From Roseococcus suduntuyensis (GTDB taxonomy: Bacteria > Pseudomonadota > Alphaproteobacteria > Acetobacterales > Acetobacteraceae), in NCBI RefSeq assembly GCF_014196305.1, contig NZ_JACIDJ010000004.1:206556-270555 (forward strand): 64,000 bases of DNA, written 5' to 3'. Every line of letters starts with the position of its first letter. Within the stretch, counting starts at the first letter, position 1. Position numbers and translations under genes: made by a program. Below, one piece after another: positions 13,239 to 21,263 of this stretch. A model generated the notes under the pieces. The model was given only the letters and a program-made list of their open reading frames with translations, made no database searches and was not told where the DNA came from.

Positions 13239-13703
13239 TCAGCCGACCCGCACGCGCAGCGAAGCGAGGCTCTCCTCGGCCGGGGCGATCCGCGCCAGCA
13301 TGGCGCGGCACAGCGACTGGCCATGCACCGCGGTCGAGCACAGGCCCGCCGCTTCGCGCGCCGCATAGGCGGCCGCGGCTTCGGCGATGAGACCGGGCGG
13401 CATCTTGCCGGAACAGGCCATGGACCAGCCGGCAAATCCGCGCGTCACGGTCGGCACGAACTCGATCACGCGGATGTCGGTGTGGCGCCGGTCGCGGAGC
13501 AGGCGATCGAAGGTGGCGAGCAGGATTCCGGCCGGTCCCTCAAGAACCTGCGCGAACCACCCTCCCCCCACCGCGAGGGCGCCGGTGAGGCCATCCTGCC
13601 GGTTCCGCACGCTGGACGCGGCGGCGATCTCATGGGCTTGCCGCTCCAGCAGATCGGGATCGGCCTGGGTGGCGAGGCTGACATAGGTGAGGCTGTGCAG
13701 CAT
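13239..13703 (-). CDS. BLUF domain blue-light photoreceptor
   Basis: A 154-residue protein with a BLUF (flavin-binding blue-light) domain at its N-terminus. The three photochemical residues are visible: Tyr7 (LTYVS), Asn34 (VRNRQDGLTG) and Gln52 (FAQVLEG). After about residue 95 comes a short helical C-terminal cap rather than an EAL or other output domain. It is therefore a short BLUF protein, probably signalling through a partner. The start at 13703 places Tyr at the usual position 7-8; the frame is open further upstream. It converges with the GMC oxidoreductase gene. Confidence 0.75.
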   Translation of the reverse strand: MLHSLTYVSLATQADPDLLERQAHEIAAASSVRNRQDGLTGALAVGGGWFAQVLEGPAGILLATFDRLLRDRRHTDIRVIEFVPTVTRGFAGWSMACSGKMPPGLIAEAAAAYAAREAAGLCSTAVHGQSLCRAMLARIAPAEESLASLRVRVG

Positions 13704-13920
13704 GGCATGGAGGCCCGCCCCACGCGCCGCGCCGTCGGGCCATCCGATCGCGCTGCGGCGTTGCCGGTTGTCCATGATGTGGGGATGCACGACGCCAACG
13801 GGCGCTGAGGCCATGCCGCGCGCATCGAATGCCATGGGGAAGGTGATCCTGATATGATGGGGTAAGGCGCCGCTTCCGCCGCCGAGACGGCAGGACCTAT
13901 GTTCGGGGCGCGCCCCAAGC

Positions 13921-13957
13921 ACGAAGTGGCGAAGATTTTTTGTTTTCGCCACTTCGT
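13921..13957. repeat. Perfect 13-bp inverted repeat in an AT-rich intergenic region
   Basis: ACGAAGTGGCGAA (13921-13933) and its exact reverse complement (13945-13957) flank an 11-base T-rich loop. It sits in the 484-bp gap between the BLUF gene and dksA (13704-14187), which is AT-rich here and holds no convincing gene. There is no terminal T-run after either arm, so it is more like an operator or a degraded element than a terminator. Confidence 0.55.
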
Positions 13958-14753: not shown

Positions 14754-15131
14754 TCAGCGGCCCAGCCTGGCCAGGGTGATGCGGGCGCGCAGGGCAATTC
14801 CTCCCACCAATTCGCGCAGCGCGGGGTCATGGCCGGCCTCGCCCTCCGCCAGGGCCGCGAGGCGCCGCAGCGCCGACTCGGGCAGTTGCCCCGCCAGCAG
14901 CCCGGCCTGCAGCCCCGTCAGCTCCTGCAACAGGGCCTGGCCGCGGCGGGCGGCGGTCGCGTCCCGCTCCGCGGGCGTCAGGGCGGGCGGGGGCACGCCC
15001 ATGCCGAGCCCGGCCATGGGGGCGATGGCGGCCGCATGGGCCGGCGCCTCGCTCTCGGCCAGGCGAAAGCCGGCGGGCCCGCGCGCGGCGCGCCGCGCCG
15101 TCACCCCATAGCCCCGGATCGGCTCGACCAT
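14754..15131 (-). CDS. fliX: Flagellar assembly regulator FliX
   Basis: A 125-residue protein beginning MVEPIRGYG and matching alphaproteobacterial FliX. FliX binds the sigma-54 activator FlbD and couples class II basal-body completion to class III transcription. The N-terminal third is Ala/Pro rich and flexible; the rest is helical (ELTGLQAGLLAGQLPESALRRL). It is transcribed divergently from flgI, as in Caulobacter. The ATG at 15131 has AGGAGAGG upstream. Its presence supports the FlbD-type reading of the two enhancer and sigma-54 arrangements in this window. Confidence 0.88.
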   Translation of the reverse strand: MVEPIRGYGVTARRAARGPAGFRLAESEAPAHAAAIAPMAGLGMGVPPPALTPAERDATAARRGQALLQELTGLQAGLLAGQLPESALRRLAALAEGEAGHDPALRELVGGIALRARITLARLGR

Positions 15132-15169
15132 GCTGGCCCTCTCCTTTCGTCCCGCTGCTGCCGCCCCCC

Positions 15170-15203
15170 GGCAGGTTTCACGCATCCCCGGCAGGCTTTG
15201 CCG
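15170..15203. promoter_or_regulatory. Paired ftr-like enhancer elements upstream of flgI
   Basis: GGCAGGCTTTGCCG at 15190-15203 is the exact reverse complement of the element upstream of flgF and ends 20 bp before the -24 box. A weaker copy, GGCAGGTTT, lies 20 bp further upstream (15170-15178). Same geometry as at flgF but opposite orientation, as allowed for an enhancer. Confidence 0.6.
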
Positions 15204-15223
15204 GCCAGACAGGGCTCCAGGGC

Positions 15224-15238
15224 TGGCATGCCGGTTGC
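15224..15238 (+). promoter_or_regulatory. Sigma-54 promoter of the flgI operon
   Basis: TGGCATGCCGGTTGC carries the -24 GG and -12 GC elements at the right spacing, one base away from the flgF promoter in the -24 block. It lies 95 bases before the flgI start chosen here and reads rightward. Confidence 0.82.
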
Positions 15239-15333
15239 GAGGCACCTGGGGCCCCGCTCCGGGGCGACTGGAAGGTGGAGGTATTGTGTTGCCAGCGGAT
15301 GAACGCGCCGCCCCCAAGGGGCTGTGGTCGGCC

Positions 15334-16434
15334 ATGCGGCGGATGGGGGGCTTGCTCGCCCTGCTCCTGCTGCTGCCGGGCCTGGCCCTCGCGCAGCCCG
15401 TCCGCATCAAGGACATCGCCGACATCGAGGGCGTGCGCGACAACCAGCTGGTGGGCTACGGCCTGGTGGTGGGCCTGCCCGGCACCGGCGACAGGCTCCG
15501 CACCGCCATCTTCACCCGCCAATCCCTGGTGGGGATGCTGGAACGCCTGGGCGTGAACACCCGCGACAACGAGGCGCGGCTGGACACGCGCAATATCGCG
15601 GCCGTGATGGTCACGGCCAACCTGCCCGCCTTCGCCCAACCCGGCTCGCGCATTGACGTCGCCATCTCCTCGCTGGGCGACGCGCAGAACCTCACGGGCG
15701 GCATGCTGGTGGTCACCCCCCTGCTGGGCGCGGATGGCGAGGTCTATGCGGTGGCGCAGGGCGCCGTCGCCACGGGCGCCATCGGCGCGCGCGGCGCGGG
15801 GGCCAGCGTGCAGCGCGGCGTGCCGACCTCGGCGCGGATTTCGGCGGGTGCGATCGTGGAGCGCGCGGTGCCCTTCACCCTCGCCAACCGCCCGACCCTG
15901 CGGCTGGCGCTGCGCAACCCCGACTTCACCACGGCGCGGCGCATCGCCGCCGCCATCAACCGCGCCCAGGGCCAGGGGGTGGCGCGCGCGACCGACCCGC
16001 GCACCGTGCTGCTGAACCTGGGCAACCGTGATCCGGTCGCCTTCATCACCGACATCGAGCAGCTGCGCGTGACACCCGACCAGGTGGCGCGGGTGGTCAT
16101 CGAGGAGGCGTCCGGCACCATCGTCATGGGCTCCAATGTGCGGGTGTCGACGGTGGCGATCGCGCAGGGCAACCTCACCATCCGCATCACCGAGACACCG
16201 CAGGTGGTGCAGCCCAACCCGCTGGCGGGCGGCGAGACGGTGGTGGTGCCGCGCACCCAGATCGAGGTGGACGACCAGCGCGAACGCCGCGTGGGCGTGC
16301 TGGATGGCGGGGTGACGCTGGAAGAGCTGGTGCGCGGGCTGAACAGCCTGGGCGTCGGCCCACGCGACCTGATCACCATCCTGCAGACCATCCGCGCGGC
16401 GGGTGCGCTTCAGGCGGAACTGGAGGTGCGCTGA
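15334..16434 (+). CDS. flgI: Flagellar P-ring protein FlgI
   Basis: A 366-residue exported protein that forms the periplasmic P ring around the rod. A Sec signal peptide (GGLLALLLLLPGLALA) leads to the mature start QPVRIKDIADIEGVRDNQL. Typical family blocks follow: GYGLVVGLPGTGDRL, NIAAVMVTANLPAF and DVAISSLGDAQNLTGGMLV. The ATG at 15334 was chosen because it begins the signal peptide; the frame is open upstream through the promoter. Its stop overlaps a duplicated mini-ORF and not the next gene directly. Confidence 0.95.
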   Translation: MRRMGGLLALLLLLPGLALAQPVRIKDIADIEGVRDNQLVGYGLVVGLPGTGDRLRTAIFTRQSLVGMLERLGVNTRDNEARLDTRNIAAVMVTANLPAFAQPGSRIDVAISSLGDAQNLTGGMLVVTPLLGADGEVYAVAQGAVATGAIGARGAGASVQRGVPTSARISAGAIVERAVPFTLANRPTLRLALRNPDFTTARRIAAAINRAQGQGVARATDPRTVLLNLGNRDPVAFITDIEQLRVTPDQVARVVIEEASGTIVMGSNVRVSTVAIAQGNLTIRITETPQVVQPNPLAGGETVVVPRTQIEVDDQRERRVGVLDGGVTLEELVRGLNSLGVGPRDLITILQTIRAAGALQAELEVR

Positions 16435-16514
16435 TGTCCACGCAAGCGCCCCGCCTGCAGCGCCGTTTCCTTGTCCGCTCCGCGGCGGGGCAGGCCGAAC
16501 TGGAGGTCCGCTGA
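16434..16514 (+). CDS. Mini-ORF repeating the end of flgI
   Basis: A 26-codon frame that starts in the flgI stop (TGATG) and stops in the start of the rod-binding gene (TGATG). Its last seven codons, QAELEVR, repeat the last residues of FlgI, and the DNA GC-GAACTGGAGGT-CGCTGATG occurs at both ends 80 bases apart. It thus forms a continuous chain of stop-start overlaps. Its middle (STQAPRLQRRFLVRSAAG) is basic and unlike known proteins. It may be only a duplication scar kept in frame. Confidence 0.45.
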   Translation: MSTQAPRLQRRFLVRSAAGQAELEVR

Positions 16515-16813
16515 TGATCATCCCCCTCCCCACCGCCGGCGCCACCACCACCCAGGTGCCGCCGCGCATGCGGCAGGCCGCCCAGGCCTTCGAGGCCCAG
16601 GTGCTGGCGCAGATGCTGCAGCCCGCCTTCGCCGCCGCCCACAATGACAAATCGCCCTTCGGCGGCGGGTCCGCCGAGGCGCAATGGCGGCCCATGCTGG
16701 TCGAGGCCTTCGCCACTTCCGCCGCGCGCGGCGGGCGGGGCATCGGGCTCTCCGACATGGTCCTCGCCCACATGATCCGCACCCAAGCCCAATCACAGGA
16801 GAACCATCCATGA
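16514..16813 (+). CDS. flgJ: Rod-binding protein, FlgJ N-terminal type
   Basis: A 99-residue protein consisting only of the FlgJ N-terminal rod-binding domain. It has RQAAQAFEAQVLAQMLQPAF and the C-terminal GIGLSDMVLAHMIR helix. The muramidase domain of enterobacterial FlgJ is absent, as is usual in alphaproteobacteria, where a separate enzyme opens the wall. It caps the growing rod. Translation starts in the stop of the mini-ORF and its stop overlaps the next gene in ATGA. Confidence 0.82.
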   Translation: MIIPLPTAGATTTQVPPRMRQAAQAFEAQVLAQMLQPAFAAAHNDKSPFGGGSAEAQWRPMLVEAFATSAARGGRGIGLSDMVLAHMIRTQAQSQENHP

Positions 16814-17211
16814 TGGACGCCGTCATCGCCGCCGGAGAGCGCCTCGCCGAGGCCCTTCGCGCCGAGAACGAGGCGCTGGCCGCGCTCGACCTCACCCGCG
16901 CCGCCGCCATGGCCACGCGCAAGGTGCAAGCCACCGACGCCTTCGCCGCCGCCACCGCCGCCGCAACCCGGGTGGGCGCCCGCGCCGAGGGTGGGCTGCG
17001 CCAGATGGCGGAGAAGTTGGCGACCGACCTCGGCTCGCTCGGCCAGCAGAACCGGAAATTGCTGGAGGAGGCGATCGCCTTGCAATCGCGTGTGATCGAG
17101 ACCATCGCCACCGCCTCTCGCCCCGCGGCCCATGCGCCGGGCTATGGCCGCCAGGGCCGCCACCGGCCGGGCGCCCAGGCCGCGGCCCTTGCGGTGGTGA
17201 CGCGGGCCTGA
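16810..17211 (+). CDS. flgN: FlgN-like flagellar export chaperone
   Basis: A 133-residue, mostly helical Ala-rich protein with heptad-like spacing (ERLAEALRAENEALAALDL). Its position right after the rod-binding gene and its size fit FlgN, the export chaperone for the hook-filament junction proteins FlgK and FlgL. The LGQQNRKLLEEAIALQSRVIE segment resembles the FlgN C-terminal helix. Sequence conservation in FlgN is low, so the call rests on helix pattern and context. The last 30 residues are basic and probably disordered. Confidence 0.65.
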   Translation: MMDAVIAAGERLAEALRAENEALAALDLTRAAAMATRKVQATDAFAAATAAATRVGARAEGGLRQMAEKLATDLGSLGQQNRKLLEEAIALQSRVIETIATASRPAAHAPGYGRQGRHRPGAQAAALAVVTRA

Positions 17212-17225
17212 CAGAACCGGGCCGC

Positions 17226-17975
17226 ATGGATGGCCCGGGGTTCGAAGCGGAATGGCAGGCGCTGCTGGCGGGGGAACCCGGCCGCGCCGGCGCCATGGCG
17301 GGGCTGTTCGGCCCCCTCTTCCACCCCACCGCGCCCGATGGCTGCGTGGTGGTGGGGCGCCTCGCCCAGACGCTGGACGGGCGCATCGCGACGCGCAGCG
17401 GCCACAGCCAATGGATCGGCGGCGAGGGCGATCTGCGCCACACCCACCGGCTGCGCGCCCTGTGCCACGCGGTGCTGGTGGGGTCCGCCACGGTGCGCGA
17501 GGATGATCCGCGCCTGACCACGCGGCGCGTGGAAGGCCCCTCGCCCGTGCGGGTGGTGTTGGATGCCTCGCGCCGGCTTTCCACCGATTACGGCATCTTC
17601 CGCGAGGGCCCGCCCACCCTGCTGGTCGCGGCCGAGGATGGCCCGGCACGGCACGGCACGGCCGAGGTGCTGCGCGTGCCGCGCGACGAGGGTGGCGGCC
17701 TCGACCTGCCCGCCCTGCTGCGGGCGCTGGCGGCGCGGGGGCTGACGCGCATCTTCGTGGAGGGCGGCGGGCAGACCGTCTCGCGCTTCCTGGCGGCCGG
17801 GTGCCTCGACCGGCTGCATGTGACGGTGGCGCCCATGATATTGGGCTCGGGCCGCCCGGCCTTCGCGCTGCCGGAGGTGAACCGCATCGAACAGGGGATG
17901 CGCTTCGGCTGGACGGTGCATGACATCGCGCCCGACGTGCTGTTCGACATCGCGCTGGATCGGCGCGCGCCATGA
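17226..17975 (+). CDS. RibD C-terminal type reductase
   Basis: A 249-residue NADPH reductase of the DHFR-like RibD-C family; the N-terminal deaminase domain of full RibD is absent. Visible motifs: LAQTLDGRIAT, QWIGGEGDLRHTHRLRALCH, GSATVREDDPRLTTR, and the C-terminal IFVEGGGQTVSRFLAAG and MILGSGRPAF. Such enzymes reduce the ribose of a pyrimidine intermediate to ribityl. Here it begins an operon with a dehydrogenase (4-base overlap), a pterin-synthase-like protein, a glycosyltransferase and a methyltransferase. It therefore more likely serves a dedicated pathway than riboflavin synthesis. The substrate is inferred. Confidence 0.78.
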   Translation: MDGPGFEAEWQALLAGEPGRAGAMAGLFGPLFHPTAPDGCVVVGRLAQTLDGRIATRSGHSQWIGGEGDLRHTHRLRALCHAVLVGSATVREDDPRLTTRRVEGPSPVRVVLDASRRLSTDYGIFREGPPTLLVAAEDGPARHGTAEVLRVPRDEGGGLDLPALLRALAARGLTRIFVEGGGQTVSRFLAAGCLDRLHVTVAPMILGSGRPAFALPEVNRIEQGMRFGWTVHDIAPDVLFDIALDRRAP

Positions 17976-18940
17976 GCCAGGCACTGTGGCATGTGGCGCC
18001 GGGCCGGGCCGAGCTGCGCCCCGCCCCGTGCGGCGAACCCGGGCCGGACGAGAACCTGGTGCGCGCCCTGGCCTCGGGCATTTCGCGCGGGACCGAGCGC
18101 CTGGTGCATTTCGGCCGCGTGCCCCCCGAAGCCGCCACCCAGATGCGCGGCCCCATGCAGGAGGGCGATTTCCCCTTCCCCGTGAAATACGGCTACTGCC
18201 TGGTGGGCGAGGTCGAGGCCGGGCCGCATGCGGGACAGCGCGTCTTCTGCCTGCACCCGCACCAGTCGCGCTTGGTCATCCCAGCCGGTCTCTGCGCGCC
18301 CCTGCCGGACGCGCTGCCCACGCGCCGCGCCGTGCTGGGGGCGAACATGGAAACCGCGCTGAACGCCATCTGGGATGCGGCCCCCCTGCCAGGGGAACGC
18401 GCCATGGTGATCGGCGCGGGCGTGGTCGGGCTGCTGATCGCCGCGCTGCTGGCGCGCATTCCCGGCGTGGCGGTGACGGTGGTGGACCGCGACCCCGCCC
18501 GCGCCGCGCTGGCGGAAACGCTGGGCGCGCGCTTCGCCCTGCCGGATTCGGCGCCCGGCGAACAGGAACTGATCTTCCACGCCAGCGCCAGCGAGGCGGG
18601 GCTGTGCCTCGCGCTGAACCGCGCCGGTTTCGAGGCCCGCATCATCGAGGCCTCCTGGTTCGGTGCCACCACCCCCGCCCTGCCGCTGGGGGCCGATTTC
18701 CACCACAAGCGGCTGCGCCTGCTCTCGACCCAGGTGGGCCATGTCAGCCCCGCCATGCGCGGGCGGCGCAGCCATGGGCAGCGCATGGCGTTGGCGCTGG
18801 ACCTGCTGGCCGCCGATGCGCGGCTGGACGCGCTGCTCGGGCCCGAGACACCCTTCGCCGACCTGCCCGCCCGCATCACCACCTTGCTTGAACCCCCACC
18901 GGGCGCGGCCCAGCCGCTCTGCCCCCTCGTCATCTACTGA
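17972..18940 (+). CDS. BchC-like medium-chain dehydrogenase
   Basis: A 322-residue MDR-superfamily oxidoreductase. The GroES-like half includes ASGISRGTERLVHFG, the motif seen in BchC-type dehydrogenases. The catalytic zinc Cys of classic alcohol dehydrogenases is replaced here (SGISRGTE). The nucleotide-binding half has VIGAGVVGLLIAALLA followed by the acidic VVDRDP strand end, which suits NAD(H). It overlaps the reductase gene by four bases and is followed 11 bases later by the pterin-synthase-like gene. It probably oxidises or reduces a hydroxyl or carbonyl on the operon's product; the precise reaction is unknown. Confidence 0.7.
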   Translation: MSQALWHVAPGRAELRPAPCGEPGPDENLVRALASGISRGTERLVHFGRVPPEAATQMRGPMQEGDFPFPVKYGYCLVGEVEAGPHAGQRVFCLHPHQSRLVIPAGLCAPLPDALPTRRAVLGANMETALNAIWDAAPLPGERAMVIGAGVVGLLIAALLARIPGVAVTVVDRDPARAALAETLGARFALPDSAPGEQELIFHASASEAGLCLALNRAGFEARIIEASWFGATTPALPLGADFHHKRLRLLSTQVGHVSPAMRGRRSHGQRMALALDLLAADARLDALLGPETPFADLPARITTLLEPPPGAAQPLCPLVIY

Positions 18941-18951
18941 AAGGCCTGCCG

Positions 18952-19356
18952 ATGTTCAGCCTGACCGTCGTGGACCACATCATGATCGCGCACAGCTTCC
19001 GCGGCGCGGAGTTCGGCCCCGCGCAACGCCTGCATGGCGCCACCTTCGTGGTGGAGGCGGAGTTCCGCGCGCCCAAGCTCGACCACCTGCATCTGCTGAT
19101 CGACATCGGGCTGGCGAAGGACGAGCTGCGGAAGATCCTGTCCGCGCTGGACTACCGCAACCTCGACGAGGAGCAGGTCTTCGCCGGCAAGAACACCACC
19201 ACCGAATATCTCTGCCTGCACATCCATGGCCTGCTGGCCGCCGCCTGCCGCGACGGGCGCATGGGGCCGGGCGGGGATGGGGTGACGGGCATCAAGGTGC
19301 TGCTGCGCGAGAGCCACATCGCCTGGGCCGCCTTCGAGGGGCCCGTGGAAGCCTGA
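18952..19356 (+). CDS. 6-pyruvoyl-tetrahydropterin synthase-like protein with altered active site
   Basis: A 134-residue protein of the PTPS/QueD fold. It keeps His14 (MIAHSF) and His28 (RLHG) as zinc ligands, but the usual third His of HGH is Ala30. The catalytic Cys just before the LHG motif is also missing (FGPAQRLHG). The downstream LDH motif is LDY (67-68), so the catalytic His is lost too. The substrate-binding NTTTEYL segment remains. These changes look like a subfamily trait and not recent decay. It may act on a different pterin or bind without catalysis. Gap to the next gene is four bases. Confidence 0.72.
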   Translation: MFSLTVVDHIMIAHSFRGAEFGPAQRLHGATFVVEAEFRAPKLDHLHLLIDIGLAKDELRKILSALDYRNLDEEQVFAGKNTTTEYLCLHIHGLLAAACRDGRMGPGGDGVTGIKVLLRESHIAWAAFEGPVEA

Positions 19357-19360
19357 CGCC

Positions 19361-20392
19361 ATGGAGATCGCGCTGATCGTCCCCGCCCCCTTCGACACCA
19401 TCTCGGGCGGCTATCTCTATGACCGGCGCATGGTGGCGGGGCTGCGCGCGCTGGGCCACGGCGTGCGCGTCGTGGAGCTGGCCGGCACGCACCCCCTGGC
19501 CGACGCCGCGGCGCAAGACGCCGCCGGTGCCGCGCTTTCCGGGCTTCGCGCGGGCGAGGTCGCGCTGGTGGACGGCCTCGGCCTGCCCGCCTTCGCCCCG
19601 CACCGCGACGCATTGGCCGCAAGCGGCGCGGTGGGGCTGATCCATCACCCGGTCAGCCTCGAACAGGGGCTGGACCGGGAGGCGCTGGAGCCCATCGAGC
19701 GCGACCTCTTCGCCGCCTGCGCGCGGCTGGTGGTGACCTCGCCCATGACGGCCACCACGCTGGGCCAGTTCGGCGCCGAACCCAGGCGCGTTTCCGTGGT
19801 GGAGCCGGGCACGGACCCCGCGCCGCGCAGCCAGGGCTCGGGCGGGCCGGGCTGCCGGATTCTCGCGGTGGGTTCCATCATCCCGCGCAAGGGGCATGAC
19901 GTGCTGCTGCGCGCGCTGGAGCGGCTGACAGACCTCGACTGGACGCTGCGCATCGTGGGCGCGCCACATGACCCGGTTCACCTGCACAGCCTGCAGGCGC
20001 TGGTGGAGGAGTTGGGCCTTGGCGCGCGGGTGGAATTCCTGGGCGGGCTCGACACCGCCAGCCTGGAGGCGGAATACGCCGCCGCCGACCTGTTTGCCCT
20101 CGCCACCCATTACGAGGGCTATGGCATGGTGGTGGCCGAGGCCCAGGCGCGCGGCCTGCCCATGGCGCTGTGCACCGGGGGCGCGGTGGCGGACCTGGTT
20201 GCCCCGGGCTCGGCCATCCTGGCCCCGCCCGGTGACTTTAACTCCCTCTCGCGCGGGATGCGCCGGCCCATGCTGGACACCACCCTGCGGGCGCAGATGG
20301 CGGACGCCGCCTGGCGCGCCGGCCAGGCCCTGCCGCGCTGGGAAGATCAGGCGGCCCGCCTCGCCACCATCCTGGAGAACGCCCATGGCTGA
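19361..20392 (+). CDS. GT4 family glycosyltransferase
   Basis: A 343-residue GT-B fold glycosyltransferase. The N-terminal half starts MEIALIVPAPFDTISGGYLYD; the C-terminal half has the hinge GSIIPRKGHDVLLRAL and the EGYGMVVAEAQARG motif with the two GT4 glutamates. It lies inside the RibD/MDR/PTPS-like/methyltransferase operon, with no lipid-carrier or polysaccharide gene nearby. The acceptor is therefore probably the small molecule made by its neighbours, as in pterin glycosyltransferases of cyanobacteria. That acceptor is inference. Its stop overlaps the methyltransferase start by 8 bases. Confidence 0.8.
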   Translation: MEIALIVPAPFDTISGGYLYDRRMVAGLRALGHGVRVVELAGTHPLADAAAQDAAGAALSGLRAGEVALVDGLGLPAFAPHRDALAASGAVGLIHHPVSLEQGLDREALEPIERDLFAACARLVVTSPMTATTLGQFGAEPRRVSVVEPGTDPAPRSQGSGGPGCRILAVGSIIPRKGHDVLLRALERLTDLDWTLRIVGAPHDPVHLHSLQALVEELGLGARVEFLGGLDTASLEAEYAAADLFALATHYEGYGMVVAEAQARGLPMALCTGGAVADLVAPGSAILAPPGDFNSLSRGMRRPMLDTTLRAQMADAAWRAGQALPRWEDQAARLATILENAHG

Positions 20393-21263
20393 GAGCTTCG
20401 ACGGCGACTGGCTCTCCCTGCGCGAGGGGTTTGACGCCGAATCGCGCGCCCCGAGCCTCGCCCAGGCGCTGCTGGACCATTTGGACGAGGTGGCCCGCCC
20501 GCGCTTCCTCGACCTCGGCGCCGGCACGGGCAGCCTGACGCGCTGGCTGGGCCATGTGCCGCAGCGGCCGCACGCCTGGGTGCTGGCCGATGCCGATGCG
20601 GATCTCATGTCCCGCGCCTTCGACACCATGATGGAGGCGGCCGAGGACTGGGGCTGGCGCGCCACCTGGCCGCAGAAGAAGGCGCTGCTGCTGCATTCGC
20701 CCCAGGGCGCCTGGCGGATCGAGGGGATTCTCACCGACCTCGCCCGCGCGCCGGAGGGGCTGCCGCTGGACCGCGTGGACGCCGTGACCTGTTCCGCCCT
20801 GTGCGACCTGGTGTCGGAACGCTGGGTGGAGGCGCTGGCCGAGGCCCTGGCCCGCCACCGCCTGCCCTTCTATGCGGCGCTGAACGTCTCGGGGCGGGAG
20901 CGTTTCATGCCCCCGCATCCGGATGACGCCTGGGTGGCCCGCGGCTTCGGCCGCGACCAGCGCCGGGTGAAGGGCTTCGGCGGGCCGGCGCTGGGGGTGG
21001 AGGCGCCGGCCGCCCTCGCCCGCGCCTTCGCGCGCCACGGCTATGAGGTGCTGACGGCGCCGAGCGACTGGCGCATCCCCCGCCAGGCCGGCGCCATGGC
21101 GCGCGAACTGGCGCTGGGCCATGCCGAGGCCGCCATGCGCCACGAAACCCGCGAGGCCGCGCGCATCGAGGCCTGGGCCGAGACGCGTGCCACCCAGGCC
21201 GAGGCGGGGCGGCTTGCCGTGCGGGTGCCGCACCGCGACGTGCTGTGCCTCCCGCCCGCATGA
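20385..21263 (+). CDS. Class I SAM-dependent methyltransferase
   Basis: A 292-residue methyltransferase with the AdoMet loop FLDLGAGTGSLTRWLG (motif I), an acidic strand-2 end (VLADADADLM) and VDAVTCSALCDLVSERWVEAL after strand 4. The C-terminal part binds substrate and carries no known signature. It overlaps the glycosyltransferase gene by eight bases and is the last gene of the operon. It probably methylates the pathway product or an intermediate. A pair of 17-bp tandem repeats follows it directly. Confidence 0.75.
   Translation: MAESFDGDWLSLREGFDAESRAPSLAQALLDHLDEVARPRFLDLGAGTGSLTRWLGHVPQRPHAWVLADADADLMSRAFDTMMEAAEDWGWRATWPQKKALLLHSPQGAWRIEGILTDLARAPEGLPLDRVDAVTCSALCDLVSERWVEALAEALARHRLPFYAALNVSGRERFMPPHPDDAWVARGFGRDQRRVKGFGGPALGVEAPAALARAFARHGYEVLTAPSDWRIPRQAGAMARELALGHAEAAMRHETREAARIEAWAETRATQAEAGRLAVRVPHRDVLCLPPA

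Follow-up and report, generated by a model that had tools for sequence, protein, structure and literature searches.

A conserved gene cluster around a PTPS-IV protein in Roseococcus suduntuyensis and its possible role in forming a glycosylated, methylated pterin-like compound

We analyzed a stretch of 64,000 nucleotides from Roseococcus suduntuyensis (contig NZ_JACIDJ010000004.1, positions 206,556 to 270,555; hereafter the window), which contains a five-gene operon on the + strand at 17226-21263. We tentatively propose, with a probability of about 0.42, that these genes form the core of a conserved pathway from the product of GTP cyclohydrolase II (GCH II) to a pterin-like compound bearing a sugar and a methyl group, with no GTP cyclohydrolase I chemistry involved. 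The proposal draws on the occurrence of the cluster in four phyla, a contiguous seven-gene version in another alphaproteobacterium (L159), a RibD-type reductase without a deaminase domain, and the residues of a protein related to 6-pyruvoyltetrahydropterin synthase (PTPS). It also draws on two unlinked proteins of the window genome, a GCH II (L143) and a creatininase (L145), which group with proteins encoded in such clusters. Neighboring genes of the operon overlap or are separated by at most 11 bases, confirming the packed set of five enzymes seen in a preliminary description of this DNA:

17226..17975, + strand: stand-alone RibD C-terminal (pyrimidine nucleotide reductase) domain protein (RibD_C), 249 aa; PF01872, 154 bits
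17972..18940, + strand: BchC-like medium-chain dehydrogenase, 322 aa; TIGR01202, 43.3 bits, under cut-off
18952..19356, + strand: PTPS-IV (FGPAQ type) tunnel-fold protein, 134 aa; PF01242, 70.6 bits
19361..20392, + strand: GT4-family glycosyltransferase, 343 aa; PF00534, 92.5 bits
20385..21263, + strand: class I S-adenosylmethionine (SAM)-dependent methyltransferase, 292 aa; LDLGAGTG motif

Conservation of the gene neighborhood

The PTPS protein was searched for in 190 alphaproteobacterial genomes sampled evenly across the class, which yielded 24 matches, that of the window genome among them; one match (G097, E 7.9e-4) was a different PTPS and was set aside. For each of the other 22 loci, 9.5 to 20 kb were retrieved. 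At least two of the other four operon genes adjoin the PTPS gene in all 22 genomes, with BchC-like, GT4 and methyltransferase genes each found at 21 loci and RibD_C at 17. L034 lacks BchC-like and RibD_C genes and L043 lacks GT4 and methyltransferase genes; in both, the PTPS gene is close to a contig end. The dedicated pathway claimed in the preliminary description is thus well supported by a conserved neighborhood.

The analysis was extended to named genomes, which gave at least 587 relatives among at least 595 matched stretches, the best 80 of which were used, and to plasmids, where 20 records had a match and six were examined. The resulting set of 104 loci (20 from the class search, 80 named, four from plasmids) is non-random outside the class search and counts one genome twice (L026 and L096). 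BchC-like genes were present at 101 of these loci, GT4 at 98, methyltransferase at 90 and RibD_C at 83. Further partners were CDP-alcohol phosphatidyltransferase (38 loci), GCH II (RibA; 35), UPF0104 (33) and creatininase (17), and rarer ones sulfatase-like (11), YceI (10), FkbM (9) and cytochrome b561 (7) proteins. The preliminary description had suggested attached GCH II and creatininase-type genes, and both are also part of the seven-gene set of L159.

The cluster also occurs in Actinomycetes, Gamma- and Betaproteobacteria, Acidobacteriota and Gemmatimonadota. Outside the Alphaproteobacteria it often includes GCH II, a creatininase-type hydrolase, a CDP-alcohol phosphatidyltransferase and a flippase-like protein; the 28 Actinomycete loci encode UPF0104 in 28 cases, CDP-alcohol phosphatidyltransferase in 23, GCH II in 23 and creatininase in 12. 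The 41 named alphaproteobacterial loci contain the five-gene core and little else. Scattered homologues, which would have spoken against a common pathway, were not the rule. At L089 and L090 the PTPS gene was accompanied by GT4 alone. It stood alone only in the plasmid copies L047 and L049, which are solitary by annotation and where a scan with nine partner profiles matched PTPS only; both were left out of the 104-locus count. These two PTPS-IV genes (L047 12001-12399; L049 12001-12426) are located on Streptomyces plasmids and have a common context of genes for a sigma-70 factor, a BTAD regulator, a metallo-beta-lactamase-fold hydrolase and a cupin.

Residues of the PTPS-IV protein

The window PTPS carries FGPAQ at residues 21-25, a motif found at 99 of the 104 loci and described in the main text of PMC5445326 as the signature of PTPS-IV within COG0720. 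A single-sequence search of the PDB yielded SCO6650 of Streptomyces coelicolor (3d7j, E 3.8e-43) as the sole solved match, and a PTPS-IV profile search of solved structures also reached PTPS and QueD. The PF01242 score above cut-off and the solved homologue 3d7j both indicate the PTPS family fold. In the profile alignment, Ala24, which is invariant in a 23-sequence alignment, stands opposite the Cys of animal PTPS (2g64, 1b66). The HGH of PTPS and QueD is opposite HGA of PTPS-IV, and where E. coli QueD has LDHH, PTPS-IV has L-x-Y-x.

Residues were scored in 106 copies, which are the 104 loci plus L047 and L049. The catalytic Cys of PTPS and QueD (CxxxHGH or CxxxxxHGH) is missing, residues 18-32 being Cys-free in all copies. 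The zinc-binding HGH was found in none and HGAT in all 106, so that the third zinc His is replaced. Y/FxNLD is present in 105 copies (the exception is L119), and nine contain a DHxNL string, which is located at residue 44 and so not in the catalytic stretch at 68. E85 and E120, which presumably anchor the pterin, are kept in 23 of 23 aligned sequences. With other residues at the positions of the catalytic Cys and one zinc His in every copy, PTPS-IV probably does not function in the manner of PTPS or QueD. For SCO6650, a structure paper of 2008 reportedly found zinc, the catalytic triad and PTPS activity all absent and a pterin-like pocket retained.

Public records name the window PTPS 6-carboxytetrahydropterin synthase and attach a queuosine Gene Ontology term, an annotation that its residues contradict. 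If PTPS-IV were nevertheless the QueD of this genome, its neighbors would be incidental. Besides PTPS-IV, no PF01242 protein was found in the window genome, which also has QueC (L156 9662-10417), and 15 of 23 PTPS-IV genomes, the window genome included, have no further PF01242 protein. However, the other eight do have one, the neighborhood differs from queC/queE, and the single QueE model used (TIGR04508) was unmatched in the window genome, whereas the same search was positive in a Caulobacter control. The 20 kb around QueC contained no PTPS-IV-like match, and by eye the nearby printed open reading frames did not look like QueE. Together with the replaced Cys and His, these results make a queuosine role hardly credible and agree with its dismissal in the preliminary description, despite the presence of QueC.

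GCH II and RibD_C belong to the ribityl-pyrimidine route. That this route supplies deazaflavin synthesis as well speaks for a role of PTPS-IV in coenzyme F420 synthesis. A passage in PMC5041015 makes this assignment, citing unpublished work. However, the CofH model (TIGR03551) was unmatched in the window genome, so that F420 production there is unlikely. To our knowledge, neither a GT4 enzyme nor a methyltransferase has a place in F420 synthesis. We consider this role very improbable.

Reductase, dehydrogenase, glycosyltransferase and methyltransferase

Only the RibD_C domain was matched in the RibD-type protein (residues 45-218 of 249), and the domain search detected no deaminase domain of the kind present in bifunctional RibD. 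The best PDB match of the family profile was 6p8c (E 2.1e-54), named 2,5-diamino-6-ribosylamino-4(3H)-pyrimidinone 5'-phosphate reductase. A reductase without a deaminase, nearest to an enzyme for the undeaminated substrate, would imply a ribityl-diaminopyrimidine that retains its 2-amino group.

The dehydrogenase resembles BchC of bacteriochlorophyll synthesis in being a medium-chain dehydrogenase with a weak TIGR01202 match across residues 12-230. However, its 43.3 bits are far under the curated cut-off of 291.25, and BchC identity was rejected on this score; the family also occurs in Streptomyces and other Actinomycetes. The family profile matches alcohol and polyol dehydrogenases, and 61 columns are invariant among 32 relatives. 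The protein carries the motif SGISRGTE, which we take to be located where zinc alcohol dehydrogenases have a Cys.

E252 and E260 of the GT4 protein are invariant across a 29-sequence family alignment. Its profile gave as top solved matches Tll1590, two "predicted glycosyltransferases" (3c4q, 3c48), D-inositol 3-phosphate glycosyltransferase and a PimB-type mannosyltransferase. The best matches scored 117-142 bits, as compared to 47.7 bits for the tetrahydrobiopterin (BH4) glucosyltransferase 5ze7. The last protein of the operon has the SAM-methyltransferase fold and the glycine-rich motif of class I enzymes.

A seven-gene set and the two functions missing from the operon

Locus L159 belongs to an alphaproteobacterium with a 1.6 Mb genome (96% complete; 26% GC in the fetched stretch). 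Within about 6 kb it has contiguous genes for creatininase, BchC-like dehydrogenase, PTPS-IV, GT4, methyltransferase, RibD_C and RibA, which we take as the smallest complete pathway seen. The set is small enough for heterologous expression.

GCH II and creatininase, the two functions missing from the window operon, may be encoded elsewhere in the genome. It has two GCH II-domain proteins, L143 and RibBA, both unlinked to the operon. L143 keeps the zinc cysteines and groups with ten in-cluster RibA proteins in an 11-row set (SH-like approximate likelihood ratio test, SH-aLRT, 96). The GCH II half of RibBA (L149 7093-8355) is without the three zinc cysteines. One of four creatininases of the genome, L145, forms a pair with the creatininase encoded in the L032 cluster (98). 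Both trees come from short searches with few rows and contain no outside housekeeping copies.

The residue at the position of E. coli Tyr105 was scored in 34 in-cluster RibA proteins (L029 was unscorable) and was Met in 7, His in 5 and Tyr in 22. A creatininase gene was found near all 12 Met/His loci but only 3 of the 22 Tyr loci. SCO6655 is said to have Met at this position and to halt the reaction at the formamide. A Fisher test of the association (p 8e-7) might be taken as strong proof of a formamide route. The p-value is invalid, however, because a RibA tree made with the Tyr105 column removed shows a single change to Met/His, with one independent pair, rather than twelve, and because L159 combines Tyr105 with a creatininase. 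Tyr105 is also kept in L143. The pairing is thus suggestive and compatible with a formamide hydrolase, without being proof of one.

A proposed pathway

In the scheme that we propose, the enzyme classes are those encoded and the reactions are inferred. GCH II, with a creatininase-type formamide hydrolase if needed, would form 2,5-diamino-6-ribosylamino-pyrimidinone phosphate (step 1), and RibD_C would reduce its ribosyl to a ribityl chain, with the 2-amino group retained because a deaminase is absent (step 2). The BchC-like dehydrogenase would then oxidize the ribityl 2'-OH to a ketone, giving a 1-deoxy-2-keto amine (step 3). GTP cyclohydrolase I makes the same intermediate via an Amadori rearrangement; on paper, reduction at C1' plus oxidation at C2' would equal that step. 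The 5-amino group would close on the ketone to form a 7,8-dihydroneopterin-phosphate-type ring, which the zinc-less PTPS-IV would bind or shape (step 4), after which GT4 would attach a sugar (step 5) and the methyltransferase a methyl group (step 6). Carbon donors would be required for the sugar and the methyl group only. The scheme would explain both the dehydrogenase beside a pterin-binding fold (101 of 104 loci) and the lack of a carbon donor in the seven-gene set.

Alternatively, the pathway might start with GCH II and RibD_C and end in a ribitylaminopyrimidine, or in an 8-ribityl-pterin that incorporates a carbon unit from another source. PTPS-IV would then bind the pyrimidine, the dehydrogenase would act on the sugar or side chain, and GT4 and the methyltransferase would decorate the ribityl chain. 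The ribityl chain with its 2-amino group expected from RibD_C fits this alternative, as does the loss of the PTPS catalytic residues, since pterin-side-chain chemistry would be unneeded. However, the seven-gene set has no carbon-donor family (lumazine synthase, DHBP synthase), and the Glu residues conserved in the pterin pocket would need another ligand. We regard this outcome as somewhat unlikely. The reading of the preliminary description, a dedicated pathway to a methylated, glycosylated pterin- or ribityl-pyrimidine-like product, is partly supported: the dedicated pathway stands, while the choice between pterin and open ribityl-pyrimidine, and the use of the compound, are still matters of inference.

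Several observations weigh against the proposed dihydroneopterin-type route. Step 3 is derived from chemical logic alone. The window genome also encodes GTP cyclohydrolase I, so that a second neopterin route would be superfluous unless its pool is kept apart. An open pyrimidine may be the substrate of PTPS-IV. L143, the only apparently intact GCH II of the two, must serve riboflavin synthesis too, given the loss of the zinc cysteines from the GCH II half of RibBA, so that there is no dedicated gene here; the RibA tree held L143 but no further housekeeping alphaproteobacterial RibA proteins. L145 (9898-10722) is near open reading frames that by eye resemble an ABC permease and an amidohydrolase. 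The fetched neighborhood is without RibD_C in 5 of the 22 sampled alphaproteobacteria, and the scheme does not account for the CDP-alcohol phosphatidyltransferase and flippase-like genes seen in other clusters.

Larger clusters and a possible lipid product

The latter genes raise the alternative that the end product is a membrane glycophospholipid with a pterin or ribitylaminopyrimidine head group. The CDP-alcohol phosphatidyltransferase would join CDP-diacylglycerol to a phosphorylated polyol, GT4 would glycosylate it and the UPF0104-type protein would translocate it, the window operon making the water-soluble part. The frequency of the two additional genes (38 and 33 of 104 loci; 23 and 28 of 28 in Actinomycetes) is consistent with this idea. 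The two CDP-alcohol phosphatidyltransferases tested have PgsA and archaetidylinositol-phosphate synthase, which use phosphorylated polyols, as nearest named families, with scores under all equivalog cut-offs. Among the nearest solved relatives of GT4 are D-inositol 3-phosphate glycosyltransferase and PimB-type enzymes. The cluster UPF0104 proteins match LPG_synthase_TM and, under the cut-off, a flippase-like domain.

However, both genes are absent from the seven-gene set of L159, and the 22 sampled alphaproteobacterial loci include UPF0104 in none and CDP-alcohol phosphatidyltransferase in seven. A search of the window genome with the two cluster profiles found no close counterparts: its three CDP-alcohol phosphatidyltransferases match weakly (32, 18 and 18 bits), and neither of its two PF03706 proteins matches the UPF0104 profile. 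A lipid as the general end product is therefore improbable, while a lipid-linked form is suggested by the data for Actinomycetes and for some Proteobacteria, Acidobacteriota and Gemmatimonadota. A more speculative and quite doubtful extension is a new glycophospholipid class of several phyla, with a methylated, glycosylated pterin or ribitylaminopyrimidine from the GCH II product as head group, of which the Acetobacteraceae and the reduced-genome alphaproteobacterium would keep only the water-soluble core. The five-enzyme cluster of the preliminary description thus holds for the window, whereas other phyla have a larger cluster that possibly ends in a lipid.

Relation to known systems

The archaeal and fungal order of riboflavin synthesis proceeds through GCH II or III, a formamide hydrolase and a diaminopyrimidine reductase. 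The cluster contains the corresponding classes (GCH II, creatininase-type hydrolase, RibD_C reductase), but its conserved partners include no deaminase, lumazine synthase or riboflavin synthase, and the window genome has separate RibD and RibBA elsewhere. Known pterin glycoside pathways (cyanopterin, Chlorobium PGT, BH4 glucosyltransferase) are similar in placing a GT4 enzyme by a pterin-type protein. They use GTP cyclohydrolase I and sepiapterin reductase, whereas the window PTPS is without the PTPS-II residues and its neighbors suggest GCH II and a reductase.

The closest precedent is the PTPS-IV group of SCO6650 (3d7j), which the window protein resembles in FGPAQ, in its best PDB match and in GCH II and RibD_C neighbors. 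The main text of PMC5445326 (AGeNNT 2017) describes cluster-node 62, with 561 sequences and PF00925 and PF01872 in the neighborhood; here, RibD_C lies alongside PTPS-IV in the window, and RibA and RibD_C are present at 35 and 83 of the 104 loci. PF00925 is labeled there as GTP cyclohydrolase I, but the family is that of GCH II. Supplement apart, these two families are the only neighbors named in that description. The BchC-like, GT4, methyltransferase, creatininase, CDP-alcohol phosphatidyltransferase and UPF0104 partners and the seven-gene set are added here. Searches of open-access papers, a scope that leaves most subscription papers outside, identified no description of the whole cluster or its product, and the main text of a 2026 review of pterin signaling (PMC13259868) contains neither "GTP cyclohydrolase II" nor "6-pyruvoyl". 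The term "uncharacterised" in the preliminary description therefore needs qualification: the PTPS-IV subfamily and part of its neighborhood are already in print, while the pathway product was not found in print.

A pathway common to Streptomyces, relatives of Roseomonas, a Thiodictyon (Chromatiaceae) and a 1.6 Mb alphaproteobacterium points to a new cofactor, pigment, signal or lipid. In S. coelicolor, the SCO6650/SCO6655 region makes it testable in a standard laboratory strain.

Flanking genes

A FlgI-like open reading frame, a rod-binding (FlgJ-type, PF10135) protein and a further small open reading frame occupy 15130-17211 and end 14 bases upstream of the operon. A FlgI-like protein is encoded at 27 of the 80 named loci, and the cluster may share flagellar transcription in Acetobacteraceae. 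The flagellar neighbors look like an inherited position in this family and were not treated as functional. A class II aldolase downstream of the operon was left out of the system because only 1 of the 80 named loci has one. A BLUF blue-light sensor protein (PF04940) is encoded at 13239-13952 on the - strand, 3.3 kb upstream of the operon.

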